DNA of 36,327 nt. Source: Nitrospirota bacterium. GTDB lineage: Bacteria > Nitrospirota > Thermodesulfovibrionia > UBA6902 > JACROP01. The stretch is taken from positions 1-36,327 of the forward strand of contig JACROP010000076.1 in the NCBI GenBank assembly GCA_016214385.1, written 5' to 3'. This document shows positions 1 through 10,070 of the stretch, in pieces. The stretch's first letter is position 1; every line of letters starts with the position of its first letter. The position numbers and the translations under genes are program-made. Under the pieces are notes generated by a model, which did not search any database, was not told the origin of the DNA, and worked only from the letters and a program-made list of their open reading frames with translations.

Positions 1-783
1 CCTGACTCCCCAATGCAGGTGTGGGCCTGTAGCCCTGCCCGTAGCTCCTGCAAGGCCAATTATATCACCTTTCTTTACTGTCTGGCCAGGGGACAGTGTA
101 ATCTTAGAGAGGTGGAAAAACATGCTGTAAATACCATAGCCGTGGTCGAGGACAAGGGTTTTCCCTCCAAAAAACTGGTCATCTATTATTGCGACCCTTC
201 CACTGTTGGGTGCAATCACAGGATCGCCTTCTTTAGCTTTAATATCAATACCGCTGTGGGGACTCTTTTCCTGCCCGTTTATTATCCTCCTCGCACCAAA
301 GGGGCTAATAATCGCACCCTGCAGGGGCATTATGAATCTGCCGTCCCACAGCCTCTCATTCACCGCAGGCCAGAGCTGAATGAGTCTTGAAAGCTCGGCT
401 TCAGCTCTTTTTAAGGTCTCAGGGTCTAAGTCTACCATCTTTTTTGGAAGGCTGAGCTTTTGTGTTTCAAAAGAGCCTGAGACGATTTTTATGTTCCTCT
501 CAAATATCTTTTTGCTCTGGCTGAGAGTTAAACAATATTCTCCTGGAGTGGTTCTCATGTCTACCCCTGCCAGTGCAATAAAGTCACCTGCCCCTGTCTT
601 GAAAAAGTGAAGTTCTTTATCCAGGAAGCTGCCTTCTGGCGTTCTTCCATCAGAAGATGCGGCGCGTATGAGTATAACATCGCCCTGCCTTATGACTTCA
701 GGCGTTATACTGATATCGAATGCCAGTGAAGGAGAGACGAGTAAAAGTACAAATAAGGCGCTAACTGTTAACTTTGTTGCCAC
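1..783 (-). CDS. M23 family metallopeptidase (LytM-type), 3' end cut by window edge
   Basis: Likely an exported zinc peptidase acting on peptidoglycan peptides, or a LytM-type amidase activator. The visible 261 codons start with an N-terminal hydrophobic signal segment (about residues 4-21, ending SPSLAF), followed by an all-beta region of about 90 residues, then the M23 domain from about residue 150. Zinc-site motifs are intact: H176xxxD180 in PHSGIDIKA and the second histidine motif HLHWGV at 255-260. The start is GTG, because an in-frame TAA lies four codons upstream and no ATG precedes the signal peptide. It sits 25 nt downstream of the selenoprotein gene on the same strand and is probably co-transcribed with it. 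No strong Shine-Dalgarno sequence is visible. The last few residues lie outside the window. The M23 assignment is firm; the substrate is not known. Confidence 0.9.
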   Translation of the reverse strand, partial: MATKLTVSALFVLLLVSPSLAFDISITPEVIRQGDVILIRAASSDGRTPEGSFLDKELHFFKTGAGDFIALAGVDMRTTPGEYCLTLSQSKKIFERNIKIVSGSFETQKLSLPKKMVDLDPETLKRAEAELSRLIQLWPAVNERLWDGRFIMPLQGAIISPFGARRIINGQEKSPHSGIDIKAKEGDPVIAPNSGRVAIIDDQFFGGKTLVLDHGYGIYSMFFHLSKITLSPGQTVKKGDIIGLAGATGRATGPHLHWGVR

Positions 784-808
784 AGTGTAAGTTTAACATA
801 AATGATGC

Positions 809-1204
809 TTAACGCTTAAATTCCTTTTCTACTATTTCCTTGATTTTCTTTACAGGGTAACCTTTTTTGTAAAGCTCGGAAGCCCGCAGGGCCTCCCTGA
901 GGCAGATGTCTCACTGAACTGCATGGCCATCCACATAGCAGCTCAGGAGGCTTTTGTGTTTAAATGCCGGTGATTCCTCACAGTAGCAGAAGCAGTATAT
1001 ACTGTCCAGCACCCATGGTATCTCCTTTGCGACCTTATGCGCCTCTTTTACTACAGGGTCCCTGAAGAGCTCCGGGTCAAGAGTAGGTCTCGTCTCGCCC
1101 TTTCTCAAAGACTCATCAATTGCCGGCCTTTTCTGCGCAAAGGCAAAGTCAGACACGCTTATCGCTATAGACACAGCCATGAGGATAAGTAAAAGTCGTT
1201 TCAT
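809..1204 (-). CDS. CYCXC-family exported selenoprotein with in-frame TGA (Sec) at codon 98
   Basis: A small exported thiol/selenol protein of unknown function. Residues 1-23 are a signal peptide ending FAFA. The cysteine cluster CFCYC (71-75) is followed by KHKSLLSC (C89) and HGHAVQ-like DGHAVQ at 92-97. An ordinary gene call stops at the TGA at 911-913, but the same frame continues as DICLREALRASELYKKGY and on to a TAA, giving 131 residues. In the related PCYCGC-motif proteins I recall, the position before DICL is cysteine, so TGA falls where a catalytic Cys would be, forming a U98-x-x-C101 redox motif. A GC-rich hairpin follows the TGA at SECIS spacing. A strong ribosome site, GGAGGTGAT, precedes the ATG. 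Insertion of Sec needs selA, selB, selC and selD, none of which is in the window. The alternative, a truncated 97-residue protein, would leave the conserved tail unexplained. Confidence 0.85.
882..903 (-). promoter_or_regulatory. Putative bacterial SECIS hairpin
   Basis: The mRNA strand just after the TGA folds as CAGGG-AGG-CCCTG, extended by a lower stem of four pairs (GCCT with GGGC, one G-U) across a single bulged C. That gives nine pairs and a three-base AGG loop. There are 16 nt between the TGA and the loop, and a G is among the first two loop bases. Both match what is described for bacterial SECIS elements. The hairpin is inside the coding sequence, so the same bases also encode the DICLREALR region. 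Confidence 0.75.
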
Positions 1205-1300
1205 TTAATCACCTCCAGTCGGAATCGACTCGTATCGAGATTTTTCTCTATTATCTGTAAAGGATGTGAAGAAATTATGAACCTAAATCATCCATGAAAA

Positions 1301-1430
1301 AACCACAGAGAAAACTGAGATAAATTCAAAAATCAAATATCAAAAATCAAAATTATGGAATTCATTTATTTTGTCCCGAATTAAATTCAGGATTAAATTC
1401 TGCATTTTAATTTCTCTGTGAACTCTGTGG
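1301..1430. repeat. Intergenic imperfect palindrome, ACCACAGAG family
   Basis: The left end AACCACAGAG and right end AACTCTGTGG are inverted copies (shared core CCACAGAG/CTCTGTGG). The interior is A/T rich, with repeated CAAAAATCAAA-like units on the left and ATTAAATTC-like units on the right. It fills most of the gap between the NUDIX gene and the selenoprotein gene. The same termini recur in the elements around ribH and upstream of purB. No open frame of interest is present. Confidence 0.75.
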
Positions 1431-1442
1431 CGAAAAGGTATT

Positions 1443-1952
1443 TCATCCCCCAACAACCTGAAGATAGATATTAAACTCATCTTCAAAATTATCGCTGAAA
1501 ATGCCTTTTCCCATGTTCTTCTTTATTTCCTCTGGGGGCCAGAACTTAACTTCTGTTATTTCATCCCTGTTAAATAGAATCTTGCCGCTATATATACAGC
1601 TATATGTTGTGACCAGCTCGCTTTCATAGGGGTTGCTGTGGATGTAGGTATAGAGAAATTTGGTCTCGGCCATTGTTATGCCGAGTTCTTCAGCCACCTC
1701 CCTTTTAACCGCCTCCTCAGTACTCTCCCCCTGGTTCACATGGCCTCCAACTGATGTATCCCACCTGCCAGGAGCAACATCTTTGTTCATCGAACGCTTC
1801 TGTAAGAGTAATTCCCCCTTATGATTAACGACAAGAACATGGACAACCCTGTGCAGGAGATCAGGATTTCCATGGATTTCCTCGCGGGAGGCAAGGCCAA
1901 TAACCTCTCCATCTTTATCGACAATCTCAAGGTATTCTGCATTATCCATCAT
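1443..1952 (-). CDS. NUDIX hydrolase, IPP-isomerase-like subgroup
   Basis: A 169-residue NUDIX protein that probably hydrolyses a nucleoside-diphosphate-linked substrate in the cytoplasm. The NUDIX box is complete: GGHVNQGESTEEAVKREV followed by AEELGI, with the metal-binding REVAEE glutamates. The N-terminal part (EIVDKDGEVIGLASREE, then LLHRVVHVLVVN) resembles the subgroup often annotated as isopentenyl-diphosphate isomerase-like or YfcD-like. True Idi activity would need catalytic Cys and Glu residues that I do not recognise here, so hydrolase is the safer call. The start ATG overlaps the yajQ stop, so translation is likely coupled. Substrate unknown. Confidence 0.9.
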   Translation of the reverse strand: MMDNAEYLEIVDKDGEVIGLASREEIHGNPDLLHRVVHVLVVNHKGELLLQKRSMNKDVAPGRWDTSVGGHVNQGESTEEAVKREVAEELGITMAETKFLYTYIHSNPYESELVTTYSCIYSGKILFNRDEITEVKFWPPEEIKKNMGKGIFSDNFEDEFNIYLQVVGG

Positions 1953-2446
1953 CTGTAATTCATAAACTCCATGTGTATCCCTAAATCTTTTTCCTTTAAC
2001 ATTTTTATAATAGCCTGAAGGTCATCGATCTTTTTTGCCCTCACCCTGACCTGATCCTTTTGAATCTCAGATTGGACCTTGAGTTTTGTATCTTTTATGA
2101 TTTTGACAATATCTTTGGCTTTTTCAGTGGGGATGCCCTGCTGAAGTGTTATTGCCTGCTTTACAGTGCCTGAAAGCGCAGGCTCAATTTTGCCATAATT
2201 CAGGGCATTGAGTGATACTCCTCTTTTAACGAGCTTTTCTTTAAGGATATCAACAACGCTCTTTAATTTATACTCGTCGTCAGAAAGGATGTAGAGTTCG
2301 TTCTTCCCTTTATCGAGCTCTATATTGCTCTTGCTCCCCCTGAAGTCAAACCTCTGGCCTATCTCCTTCATTGCCTGCTGCAGAGCATTGGAGACTTCCT
2401 GAAGGTCAACCTTGCATACAATATCAAATGAATGTTCATCCGGCAT
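1949..2446 (-). CDS. yajQ: YajQ-family nucleotide-binding protein
   Basis: 165 residues matching the YajQ (UPF0234) family from end to end. The start MPDEHSFDIVCKVDLQEVSN, the RFDFRGSKSNIEL segment, and the C-terminal KDLGIHMEFMNYR are characteristic. The family folds as two ferredoxin-like domains; a homologue in Xanthomonas binds cyclic-di-GMP, while the role elsewhere is not settled. A strong GGAGGAGGT ribosome site lies just before the ATG. The stop overlaps the start of the NUDIX gene, so the two form a small operon. An HD-GYP protein elsewhere in the window could be functionally related through cyclic-di-GMP, but this is only an inference. Confidence 0.93.
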   Translation of the reverse strand: MPDEHSFDIVCKVDLQEVSNALQQAMKEIGQRFDFRGSKSNIELDKGKNELYILSDDEYKLKSVVDILKEKLVKRGVSLNALNYGKIEPALSGTVKQAITLQQGIPTEKAKDIVKIIKDTKLKVQSEIQKDQVRVRAKKIDDLQAIIKMLKEKDLGIHMEFMNYR

Positions 2447-2486
2447 ATTTACCTCCTCCTTTTACATTAACCCAAAAAATGTGTTA

Positions 2487-2721
2487 ACCACAGGCGATTG
2501 AACATATTTAGTTCAACAGAGTTAGACTATATTTTTACCACGAAGAGCACGAAGGTCACGAAGATTTTACAAGACAAATCTCTTTATGCCTTTCTTTTTC
2601 ACTTCGTGTTCTTCGTGTCCTTCGTGGTTTAATTTTTCTTAGTCTAACAAAATGGTTTTAAAGTTGTTCAAAGTTGTTTAAAATTGTCTGCTTTGAACTT
2701 TTGAACTATTACTCTGTGGTT
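2487..2721. repeat. Nested palindromic repeat cluster with 9-nt unit arms
   Basis: This accounts for most of the 435-base gap between yajQ and the P-II gene. The outer ends AACCACAG and CTGTGGTT are inverted copies. Inside them GTTAGACT (2521-2528) pairs with AGTCTAAC (2641-2648). Innermost are arms made of a 9-nt unit: CACGAAGAG, CACGAAGGT, CACGAAG on the left, and CTTCGTGTT, CTTCGTGTC, CTTCGTGG on the right. The rest of the gap is A/T rich and shows nothing else I can name. Confidence 0.75.
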
Positions 2722-2887
2722 TTCATTCATGCATAATCGGTATTCAAAATCGGTATATTGTATAAAAATAGGGATTTTTAATACAATCAATTTTTACCCT
2801 TGAGTTCTTAAGCTGGAAAGCAGATTTCACACATTCTTCATATTTTCTGGTTATCTTAAATAAAATATTTGAAGGAGGGACATGATA

Positions 2888-3196
2888 ATGAAGCATGTGG
2901 TTGCTATTATAAGGTCTGTAGCCTTGGATAGAGTTGTAGAGGGACTTCAAAGTAAAAATATAAAGGGAATGAGTATAAATGAGGTGAAAGGCACAGGGGA
3001 GCAATTCGCACTCTATAAACCATTTACATCACATGTAAGGATTGACCTCTTTGTATCGGATGAAAAGATTAAAGATGTAAAGGATATCTTTCTTGCCCTT
3101 GCAAAGACAGGGGAGCCTGGAGATGGGCTGATAGCAATCTGTCCTGTTGATGAGGTGTTAAAAATAAGAACTGGTGGGGTCTTAGGGCATAACTGA
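2888..3196 (+). CDS. P-II-like signalling protein with shortened T-loop
   Basis: 102 residues from the ATG at 2888, which has better spacing to the GAAGGAGGG ribosome site than the in-frame ATG at 2882. The fold is recognisable as P-II: MKHVVAIIR at the N terminus, EVKGTG before the T-loop, then ALAKTGEPGDGLIAICPV and KIRTGG, which are the B- and C-loop motifs that bind the nucleotide. The T-loop is about ten residues shorter than in GlnB/GlnK and has lost the region of the uridylylated tyrosine, so classical nitrogen signalling through GlnD is unlikely. A divergent P-II group (PII-NG) has been described next to heavy-metal efflux genes; the neighbouring Met-rich protein and copper ATPase fit that. 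The fold is well supported; the metal role is inferred. Confidence 0.85.
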   Translation: MKHVVAIIRSVALDRVVEGLQSKNIKGMSINEVKGTGEQFALYKPFTSHVRIDLFVSDEKIKDVKDIFLALAKTGEPGDGLIAICPVDEVLKIRTGGVLGHN

Positions 3197-3290: not shown

Positions 3291-3866
3291 ATGAAGAAGA
3301 TAGTTATTGTGTTAGTAATTCTATTTGCTCTCGGCACATCATCCTGGGCCATGATGGGTGGCCAGAAAGGAGAAATGGGCCACGGCATGATGATGAGTGA
3401 GGGACAACAGATGCCGATGATGCATATGTGCCAGCATATGATGAAACATAACATGATGATGCAGAATATGATGCAGATGATGAAGGATATGCTGAAGATG
3501 CAGGAAAAGATGATAAAAGGTATGAAGCCTGCTGAGAAAAAACAGATGATGATGGAAATGAATAAGATGATGGGGAAAATGGACAGGATGATGTCTGGCA
3601 TGAAGGGCATGATGAGCGAAATGATGGAAATGCAGACAGATGTTCAGCAGAGGCTTAAATGTGCCGAAGAACAGCTTAAAAAGGCTATCGATCTGCATGA
3701 ATTACACATGAAAGACCCGAAAACAACAACTGAAGCCTCCCAGATGGAACTGATGGATCAGATTAAAAAGGCCTATGAGTGTGTAAAAGGAACAGATGAA
3801 ACAACGCCTGAAAAAGAAGGGGAAAAGGTAGAGGAGCCAAAAAAGATTGAACCGCATAAACATTAA
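3291..3866 (+). CDS. Exported methionine-rich putative copper-binding protein
   Basis: 191 residues with a signal peptide (residues 1-20, LFALGTSSWA). The mature part is dominated by Met: I count 42 methionines in the whole protein, in runs such as MMMQNMMQMMKDM, mixed with His and two Cys in the middle and tail. Residues about 40-125 look like a long Met/Lys-rich helix. The end is Glu/Lys rich and finishes HKH. Thioether clusters of this kind bind Cu(I) in periplasmic copper proteins. The protein stands between a P-II-like protein and a Cu+ ATPase, so a role in buffering or delivering periplasmic copper is a reasonable inference. I do not recognise a named family. A good AAGGAGGAAG site precedes the ATG. 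Confidence 0.85.
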   Translation: MKKIVIVLVILFALGTSSWAMMGGQKGEMGHGMMMSEGQQMPMMHMCQHMMKHNMMMQNMMQMMKDMLKMQEKMIKGMKPAEKKQMMMEMNKMMGKMDRMMSGMKGMMSEMMEMQTDVQQRLKCAEEQLKKAIDLHELHMKDPKTTTEASQMELMDQIKKAYECVKGTDETTPEKEGEKVEEPKKIEPHKH

Positions 3867-4126: not shown

Positions 4127-6514
4127 ATGAAAGTCACTGACCCTGTATGCAAGATGACCATAGATGATAAGGATGCCGTTGCTACTTCGGCTCACAAAAA
4201 TACTACCTATTATTTCTGTTCAAAATATTGTAAGAATAAATTTGACAGTAACCCGGATGCCTTTCTCGTGGGGAAAGCTGCCGAGCCTCCAAAAACAGGG
4301 GTAATTTACACCTGCCCCATGCATCCTGAAATACGACAGGAGGGGCCGGGGTCATGTCCAAAATGCGGCATGGCGATTGAACCACTGACCCCTTCTGCCG
4401 GTAAGACTGAATGGACATGTCCGATGCATCCTGAGATTGTGCGTGATGCTCCCGGAAGCTGTCCTATTTGCGGTATGGCACTTGAGCCAAAATCTGCCCT
4501 TGAGGAAGAAGAAAATCCTGAACTCATTGACATGACGAGGCGGTTCAGGGTTGGGGTCGTTCTTACCTTCCCCCTGATTTTAATAGCAATGAGGAGACTT
4601 ATCCCGTTTATCTCCATTGAAAATCTTATATCGCCGGAAATCCTGAAATGGTTAGAAATTATACTCGCTACACCTGTTGTTCTCTGGGCTGGATGGCCGT
4701 TCTTTGTGCGGGGATGGCAATCCATTATAAACCGCAGCCCTAACATGTTCACATTAATCGGGCTTGGGGTGAGTGTTGCATACATCTACAGCATTGTGGC
4801 AACGATCTTTCCTGATATATTCCCTGTGTCTTTTCGCAAAGAAGGCGGTGAAGTGGGCGTTTATTTTGAAGCTGCCGCTGTTATTGTAACCCTTGTGCTC
4901 CTCGGTCAGGTGCTTGAGCTGAAGGCACGGAGCAAGACAGGGGCAGCGATTAAGGCATTGCTTGGCCTTGCGCCCAAAACAGCCCGTCGTATTAAAAACG
5001 GGACGGAAGAAGACATTCCACTTGAGCATGTGAATAAAGGAGATACCCTCCGCGTGAGGCCCGGCGAGAAGATACCTGTAGACGGCATAGTAATTGAGGG
5101 GACAAGCTCTGTTGACGAATCAATGGTTACAGGCGAACCGATTCCTGTGCAAAAGGACAAAGGGGACAGTGTTGTTGGTGCAACTGTTAATGGAACCGGC
5201 ATGTTGATAATGAAAGCAGAAAAGGTGGGAGCAGAGACACTTCTATCACAGATTGTTCATATGGTTGCAGAGGCACAGCGAAGCCGTGCACCTATTCAGA
5301 AACTCGCTGATATAGTCGCAGCCTACTTTGTTCAGATAGTCGTTGCTATAGCGGTCTTAACCTTCATTGTGTGGGCGTGGATAGGCCCTGAGCCAAAAAT
5401 GGCACTTGCACTCATCAATGCAGTTGCTGTTCTGATAATAGCCTGCCCTTGCGCCCTCGGTCTTGCAACACCGATGTCTATAATGGTTGCAATGGGCAAG
5501 GGTGCAACAGCAGGCGTGCTTTTCAAGAATGCAGAGGCAATTGAGGTAATGAGAAAGATAGATACGCTTGTAGTAGATAAGACAGGAACACTTACTATAG
5601 GCAAGCCAAGGCTTGTAGATGTTGTCCCGAGCAGTGGGTTTGATGAGAAGTCAATAATCTATTTTGCTGCAAGCATTGAACGGGGCAGCGAACACCCTCT
5701 CGCAGCAGCGATTGTGTCAGGGGCATATGAAAAGGGCATAAAACTGACTGATGTAGAGAATTTCAAATCCATTACGGGCAAAGGGGTCATGGGTAAAATT
5801 AATGGGCATGAAGTATCTCTCGGCAATCGCAAACTGCTTGACGACCTCAGTATTAATCCGGGCGAACTGTCTCAGAAGGCTGAAACCATGCGGAAAGAAG
5901 GACAGACTGTAATGTTCATTGCAGTAGACGGAAAGGTGGTCGGACTGTTAGGTGTGGCGGACCCGATAAAGGAAACCACACCCGAGGCAATTGAACAGCT
6001 TCATAAAGAGGGCATCAGGATTGTTATGCTTACAGGGGACAATCGCACAACTGCAGAGGCTGTATCAAGAAAGCTCGGCATTGACGATGTAATTGCCGAG
6101 GTGCTACCTGACCAGAAGGCTGATATTGTCAAGAAGCTGCAAAATGAAGGGCGAGTTGTGTCAATGGCAGGAGACGGCATTAATGACGCACCAGCTCTGG
6201 CACAGGCTCATGTGGGTATTGCCATGGGAACCGGCACTGATGTAGCAATGGAAAGCGCTGGCGTGACACTGGTAAAAGGTGACCTTACGGGCATAGTTCG
6301 GGCAAGGCGCCTCAGCAGGGCGACGATGCGTAATATCAAGCAGAACCTCTTCTGGGCATTTGCCTATAATTCCCTTGGGGTTCCTGTGGCAGCAGGCATT
6401 CTTTACCCGTTCTTCGGTATTTTGCTCAGCCCTATCTTTGCTGCTGCTGCAATGAGCTTCAGTTCAGTATCAGTAGTAGGTAATGCCCTCAGGTTAAGGA
6501 GGGTGACGCTCTGA
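4127..6514 (+). CDS. copA: Cu+-exporting P1B-type ATPase with YHS and two heavy-metal-binding domains
   Basis: 795 residues. It pumps Cu(I), perhaps Ag(I), out of the cytoplasm at the expense of ATP. Domains in order: a YHS domain (about 1-47, DPVCKM and FCSKYC); two HMBD zinc-ribbon-like modules, YTCPMHPEI (61-69) with CPKCGM and WTCPMHPEI (96-104) with CPICGM; transmembrane segments from about 143; actuator domain with VTGEP (334-338); the transmembrane CPC (440-442); phosphorylation site DKTGT (484-488); SEHP (521-524); and GDGIND (682-687). AYNSLGVP and [11 protein letters not shown] near the end match the Cu+ subgroup (YN, MxxS). It has no classical CXXC HMA domain; the YHS and HMBD modules replace it. 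It follows the P-II-like and Met-rich genes, consistent with a copper module. Confidence 0.95.
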
Positions 6515-9325: not shown

Positions 9326-9354
9326 TTGACAATTCCACCTGATAGTGTTAGTAT
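9326..9354 (+). promoter_or_regulatory. Sigma-70-type promoter for the AbrB-PIN pair
   Basis: TTGACA (9326-9331) and TAGTAT (9349-9354) are separated by exactly 17 bases, close to the vegetative consensus. It begins 13 bases after the hemA stop and lies about 32 bases before the antitoxin start, so the toxin-antitoxin pair, and possibly hemC beyond it, has its own promoter. Confidence 0.7.
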
Positions 9355-9355
9355 A

Positions 9356-9368
9356 ACTTTCAGAAAGT
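9356..9368. promoter_or_regulatory. Palindrome just after the promoter, candidate operator
   Basis: ACTTTC-A-GAAAGT is a perfect 6+6 inverted repeat immediately downstream of the -10 box, over the expected transcription start. AbrB/VapB-type antitoxins usually repress their own promoter by binding such palindromes, so this is a likely autoregulatory site. The position supports this; the binding is inferred. Confidence 0.5.
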
Positions 9369-9385
9369 CGGAAAGGAGGAATTTC

Positions 9386-9631
9386 ATGTTAGTTCAGGTC
9401 AAAAAAAAGGCACAGATAACTATACCCGTAAAGATAAGAGAGACTATTGGCATAGAAGAAGGAGATATATTAGATGTAGAGGTTAAGAATAAGGAGATAG
9501 TGCTCAAGCCTGTCAAGAAGAGAAAAATAGTCTTAAAACCTGTAAATGTTAAGGTTCTTGACGAATTGACAGGGATTGTGTCCATCGGAGGGGATGCAAC
9601 AAAGGACTCTGAGGCTATCTGGGATGAGTAA
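9386..9631 (+). CDS. AbrB/MazE-type antitoxin
   Basis: 81 residues. A swapped-hairpin AbrB domain occupies residues 1-45 (KKKAQITIPVKIRETIGIEE, then GDILDVEV). The C-terminal part (about 50-81, LTGIVSIGGDATKDSEAIWD) is the sort of tail that wraps and blocks a PIN toxin. The ATG at 9386 is chosen over an in-frame TTG inside the promoter because AAAGGAGGA stands just upstream. The KKRKIVLKPV and EIVLKPV segments are a short internal duplication. It overlaps the toxin gene by 8 bases. Confidence 0.88.
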   Translation: MLVQVKKKAQITIPVKIRETIGIEEGDILDVEVKNKEIVLKPVKKRKIVLKPVNVKVLDELTGIVSIGGDATKDSEAIWDE

Positions 9632-10070
9632 AAAAATAATACTCGACACCAATTTCATTGTCGGACTTCTTGATGAAAAAGATAAACGACACAATAAATG
9701 CCTTCTCATAAAAAGGGCGCTGCATAACGGTGATAACGAAATTTACATCTTTGATTTCATAATCAATGAGGTTATCAATGTCTTTGTTAAAAGGCTAAAG
9801 GAACGAAAAGACACCCACAATATTATACCTCTGATTGAAAAGCTTCAGAGGTTTGTCCCTCTGGATAGAATCACATGGATTTATCCTGACATTGAAGAGT
9901 ATTTTGATAAGGTAATAGAAAGAGTAAAACAAAGCAAAGGAGCTTTTAATTTTCATGACGCTCTTATTATTCATATCGCAAACGAATTTGAGATGCCATA
10001 TATCGTGAGTTTTGATGAGGACTTTGATAAAGCCAGATTGAGAAGGATAAATGATGCGCGGGATATATAA
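9624..10070 (+). CDS. PIN-domain toxin (VapC-like ribonuclease)
   Basis: 148 residues. Single PIN domain with the acidic residues in expected order: ILDTN (D8), NEV in the second helix, FHDALI and VSFDEDFD near the C terminus. PIN toxins are Mg2+-dependent RNases that usually cut tRNA or rRNA when freed from the antitoxin. The chosen ATG overlaps the antitoxin stop, typical of coupled TA genes. All catalytic positions appear intact, so the toxin is probably active. The pair sits in the middle of the heme gene block, between hemA and hemC. Confidence 0.88.
   Translation: MSKKIILDTNFIVGLLDEKDKRHNKCLLIKRALHNGDNEIYIFDFIINEVINVFVKRLKERKDTHNIIPLIEKLQRFVPLDRITWIYPDIEEYFDKVIERVKQSKGAFNFHDALIIHIANEFEMPYIVSFDEDFDKARLRRINDARDI

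Follow-up and report, generated by a model that had tools for sequence, protein, structure and literature searches.

Described systems compared with the locus

Among the bacterial selenoproteins listed in reviews, OS_HP4 is given as a family with a UxxC motif (PMC13188914, PMC9312934), in which one selenocysteine (Sec) is present (PMC13188914). The corresponding profile is NF041379, "CYCXC family (seleno)protein", with a curated cut-off of 90 bits. OS_HP4 has been catalogued, and no function is assigned to it in the literature examined. The second group to be considered comprises the PCYCGC (lipo)proteins of PF13798, whose cysteine forms carry Cys at the Sec position. Two further systems are relevant to the possible function: the N-terminal domain of CcmH (PF03918 / PDB 2kw0), in which a three-helix bundle bears a CxxC where one of its helices begins, and CusF together with the other periplasmic Cus copper chaperones. 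CusF is a small beta barrel.

Organization of the gene and family assignment

In silico analysis of the window (the whole stretch of DNA analysed, 36,327 nucleotides, one contig of a 2.0 Mb genome that is 99% complete) revealed a small gene on the minus strand, starting with an ATG at 1204 that is preceded by a ribosome-binding site, GGAGGTGAT (Table 1). In the standard code the frame ends at the TGA after 97 residues; when this codon is read through, 33 further codons follow and a 131-residue product results, which reads MKRLLLILMAVSIAISVSDFAFA-QKR...CFCYC...HAVQUDICLREALRASELYKKGYPVKKIKEIVEKEFKR. The in-frame TGA and its 33-codon continuation, first pointed out in an earlier note on this DNA, are thus seen in the translation, with the frame closed by TAA. 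The gene is almost certainly a selenoprotein gene in which TGA is read as Sec. Standard annotation stops the protein at residue 97, whereby the presumably reactive residue is lost.

Table 1. Features of the selenoprotein locus and of the nearby metal-related genes (positions in the window)
Feature	Position	Strand	Basis
Predicted CYCXC-family selenoprotein gene, complete, 131 residues with Sec98	809..1204	-	NF041379, PF13798, translation
Stop codon TAA	809-811	-	translation
SECIS hairpin GGAGGCCC-UGC-GGGCUUCC (5' arm 896-889, loop UGC 888-886, 3' arm 885-878)	878..896	-	fold, shuffles, pairing, pS
Predicted UxxC redox motif, U98-D-I-C101	902..913	-	alignment A1, Sec entered as C
In-frame TGA, predicted selenocysteine 98, first residue of the UxxC motif	911..913	-	codon survey of 76 homologous loci
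CFCYC cluster (C71, C73, C75), the CYCXC motif	980..994	-	conservation in 67 sequences
Putative signal peptide MKRLLLILMAVSIAISVSDFAFA, followed by QKR...	1136..1204	-	by eye from translation
Ribosome-binding site GGAGGTGAT just 5' of ATG	1205..1220	-	sequence
P-II family gene	2882-3196	+	
Met/His-rich exported protein without Pfam match	3291-3866	+	
YHS/heavy-metal-binding P-type ATPase, in a row with the two preceding genes	4127-6514	+	

Membership in the CYCXC/PCYCGC proteins, proposed earlier from the letters, was borne out by both profiles. The full product matches NF041379 with 121.7 bits over profile positions 1-89 of 90, and PF13798 with 36.7 bits against a gathering score of 25. The window gene is a further member of the already known CYCXC/PCYCGC (OS_HP4) selenoprotein family. 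This makes the case less surprising than it first seemed, since the family had been described before as a UxxC selenoprotein. The protein shares with OS_HP4 (i) a match over the whole domain; (ii) a UxxC motif with one Sec, here U98-D-I-C101; (iii) the CYCXC cluster; (iv) the character of a small exported protein, and no difference from OS_HP4 was found in it. It differs from the PCYCGC (lipo)proteins in having Sec in place of Cys and a signal peptide without a lipobox cysteine. Export via this signal peptide is predicted from the translation.

In an alignment of 67 proteins (A1), the residues C71, C73, H83, C89, H94 and C101 never vary, position 98 is always Sec or Cys, and C75 is conserved in at least 90% of the sequences. 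The U98-x-x-C101 motif recognized in the earlier note is therefore constant at both ends.

A variant of the motif is encoded by one homologue (L073:4262-4714; G272 contig C1:1192369-1192713), where a second in-frame TGA replaces the cysteine of UxxC and yields U-x-x-U. Such a form with two Sec is absent from the OS_HP4 listing of the reviews. No second UxxU relative was found in 231 genomes of the class, so the double Sec of L073 may be real or may be an error. The genome of L073 carries four paralogues, in both Sec and Cys forms.

Codon 98 and the sequence behind it

A match was present in 82 of the 396 genomes of the phylum, and the publicly named relatives likewise belong to Nitrospirae/Nitrospirota. 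Codon 98 was surveyed at 76 homologous loci, all from Nitrospirota and a few of them representing the same locus under two names: it is TGA in 57, TGC in 13, TGT in five and N-masked in one. All 75 readable loci thus carry either TGA or a Cys codon (18 loci) and no other residue, in agreement with the expectation that homologues would have Cys or Sec at this site; Cys homologues at the Sec position are a criterion for bacterial selenoproteins. The masked locus, L033 (G111:C3), reads NGA at the Sec site, and the rest of its gene and its hairpin are of the Sec type.

The tail is kept in the 57 TGA-bearing homologous loci, and its conservation, anticipated in the earlier note, takes the form of in-frame purifying selection. 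Against close Sec homologues, tail codons +13 to +28 show a pS of 0.78 and a pN of 0.10, resembling the 26 codons upstream of the TGA (pS 0.86, pN 0.17), whereas the other two frames of the tail lack this pattern (pS about 0.19, pN about 0.28). The restriction of the pattern to the reading frame indicates that the tail is translated protein. Conserved coding sequence on both sides of the UGA, a criterion for selenoproteins, is accordingly present.

These data bear directly on the possibility that the TGA is a true stop, the product being a 97-residue protein and the tail a relic or a separate gene. TGA is a frequent genuine stop in this genome, and standard gene calling ends the frame at this codon; however, the in-frame selection on the tail, the finding of nothing but TGA or a Cys codon at this site in the phylum, and a SECIS hairpin kept beyond the constraint of the protein (below) make a true stop highly improbable.

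The SECIS element

Published rules for bacterial SECIS elements demand a stem of 4-16 bp, a loop of 3-9 nt with G in the first two loop positions, a distance of 16-37 nt from the UGA and a minimum free energy of at most -7.5 (PMC13188914). The hairpin at 878-896 consists of eight pairs, with 22 nt between TGA and loop and an energy of about -15 kcal/mol, and lies within these constraints. The dinucleotide-shuffle fold test, run first, gave a weak signal (z -1.36). Preference was given to a test against synonymous recodings that keep the amino acids; here the window hairpin reached z -3.3 (p 0.007), and z averaged -2.6 for Sec genes, compared with -0.4 for Cys genes.

Comparison among homologues points in the same direction. 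In the window's clade, 36 distinct Sec sequences form 99.3% of the pairs, as against 43% in Cys genes; the exchanges within the clade are of the G-C/G-U/A-U kind, together with one double change from C-G to A-U. Synonymous divergence across the hairpin is suppressed five-fold (pS 0.156). The hairpin of a second Sec clade is weaker, with 85% of its pairs formed, and in the window's clade one loop in six has no early G; hairpins with weaker pairing or without the early G may be atypical SECIS elements.

A different hairpin, with an AGG loop (GCCTC-AGG-GAGGC), had been put forward in the earlier note as the SECIS element, with nine pairs and 16 nt from the TGA. Its stem actually has five pairs, with the loop 12 nt after the TGA, and only 14 of the 53 Sec sequences preserve the full stem; this candidate was rejected. 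An Rfam search of positions 1-3000 returned chance matches only, below the gathering score.

Selenocysteine machinery and genetic code

The genes selA, selB, selC (tRNA-Sec) and selD, for which the earlier note had suggested a search, were all found in the same genome. Contig C162 carries selA (632 bits) and selB (368 bits) together with the tRNA-Sec gene at 6119, and selD is located on contig C182. In this mechanism, SelB bound to the 878-896 hairpin would bring Sec-tRNA-Sec to the UGA, and translation would go on to the TAA at 809. Within the phylum, selA occurs in 55 of the 57 Sec genomes, in 7 of the 18 Cys-only genomes and in 177 of the 396 genomes overall, an association that is confounded and partly due to descent because the tree requires just two Sec/Cys changes.

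The selD gene of this genome (L019:1-1500) is itself a selenoprotein gene, with the canonical TGA in KAAG-U-AGKLGPGDL.

That the TGA is read as Trp or by non-specific readthrough under a changed code, or is a sequencing error of TGC/TGT, can be set aside as very remote: one mistake could make TGC into TGA in a single genome, but TGA stands in 57 loci, no homologue has Trp at the site, the Sec machinery is complete, and 14 of the 25 other genes in the window end at TGA as an ordinary stop, which shows that there is no code change. Three findings had been named in advance as speaking against Sec, namely missing machinery, homologues with neither Cys nor Sec at the site, and a tail without conservation, and none of them was made. 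The gene, its tail, the SECIS element, the machinery and the family have been established by computation; for the cell, we strongly infer that Sec is inserted.

Predicted structure and comparison with CcmH

AlphaFold predicts a confident helical core, the pLDDT being about 96-98 for most of the residues from 31 to 130. No PDB relative was found by sequence, and a Foldseek search of the PDB with the model gave no match with E below 0.001. The N-terminal domain of E. coli CcmH was placed at rank 3 in a weak match (TM 0.52 by target, prob 0.38, E 2.0). Alignment of A1 with the CcmH alignment in hhalign was likewise weak (prob 66%, score 32.7), with U98 and C101 falling on the CxxC of CcmH; column-shuffled and reversed controls scored 16.3 or less. 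CcmH was picked for this comparison after the Foldseek list had been seen, and the alignment requires a 13-residue gap. None of the 67 family members reached the gathering score of PF03918, the best, a single one, having E 0.023. The common features are the CxxC at the helix start, a GKS-type turn and a final helix, whereas no CYCXC cluster is seen in the CcmH sequences examined. Together, model and profile give a hint of a relationship with CcmH.

Gene neighbourhood and possible function

Among 27 sampled clade relatives, 15, from at least six families, have the gene followed on the same strand by outer-membrane efflux, CusB-like and CusA-like genes, often with a YtkA-like gene between it and the efflux gene. 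The Cys relatives on Burkholderia/Paraburkholderia plasmids adjoin cueR, multicopper oxidase, DsbD, copper-binding and RND genes. As far as the literature examined shows, the link to Cus-type operons in Nitrospirota and to copper islands on Burkholderia-group plasmids is apparently new. A small exported protein adjoining cusCBA-like genes recalls CusF and the other periplasmic Cus chaperones, from which the present protein differs by its all-helical, Cys/Sec-rich model; no sequence relation was found.

The Cus operon is absent from the window, where the contig ends at base 1, and a metal role hence rests on the relatives. The neighbours in the window are M23 peptidase, NUDIX and DUF520 genes. 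A P-II gene, a gene for a Met/His-rich exported protein and a copper-type P-ATPase gene are found 1.7-5.3 kb from the gene; the ATPase, with heavy-metal-binding domains, is 3 kb away and on the other strand.

The likeliest role, proposed tentatively from the gene context and the conserved residues, would be to handle Cu(I) or similar metals in the periplasm, or to repair thiols in connection with this. The product would be a small helical thiol/selenol protein of the periplasm, in which U98-x-x-C101 may act as a reactive redox or soft-metal-binding pair beside C71/C73/C75 and the invariant H83, C89 and H94. It could pass a thiophilic metal, Cu(I) or one like it, to the Cus-type efflux pump; alternatively, it could keep partner thiols reduced under metal stress.

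The same selenoprotein might instead exchange thiols and disulfides in the manner of CcmH, serving the maturation of cytochrome c or the reduction of disulfides, with the metal-operon link reflecting thiol protection. The rank of CcmH in the Foldseek list and the hhalign score, above those of the controls, with U98 and C101 on the CxxC, are consistent with such a role. So are a TlpA/thioredoxin-like gene directly downstream in another 5 of the 27 relatives and ResB/CcsA genes near Cys members. The role nevertheless appears less likely, as the matches are weak and chosen post hoc with a long gap, the aligned CcmH sequences have no CYCXC cluster, and Cus neighbours (15) outnumber TlpA neighbours (5).

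Returning to the metal-handling role, a broader and still doubtful proposal is that CYCXC/OS_HP4 proteins may form a CcmH-like helix bundle bearing UxxC and act in the periplasm as selenium-dependent accessories to Cus-type copper/heavy-metal efflux; in at least the relative L073, a UxxU site may be used. If this is true, Sec would serve in metal detoxification. For a family catalogued so far without a function, the operon link makes a concrete function testable.

Two minor observations concern the surrounding genes. A P-II gene is likewise found, next to the PCYCGC gene, in the copper islands of Burkholderia plasmids. Further along the window, on the plus strand, the translations reveal small AbrB-like and PIN-domain-like genes (9326-9631 and 9576-10070), a toxin-antitoxin-like pair that sits between hemA-like and hemC-like genes.
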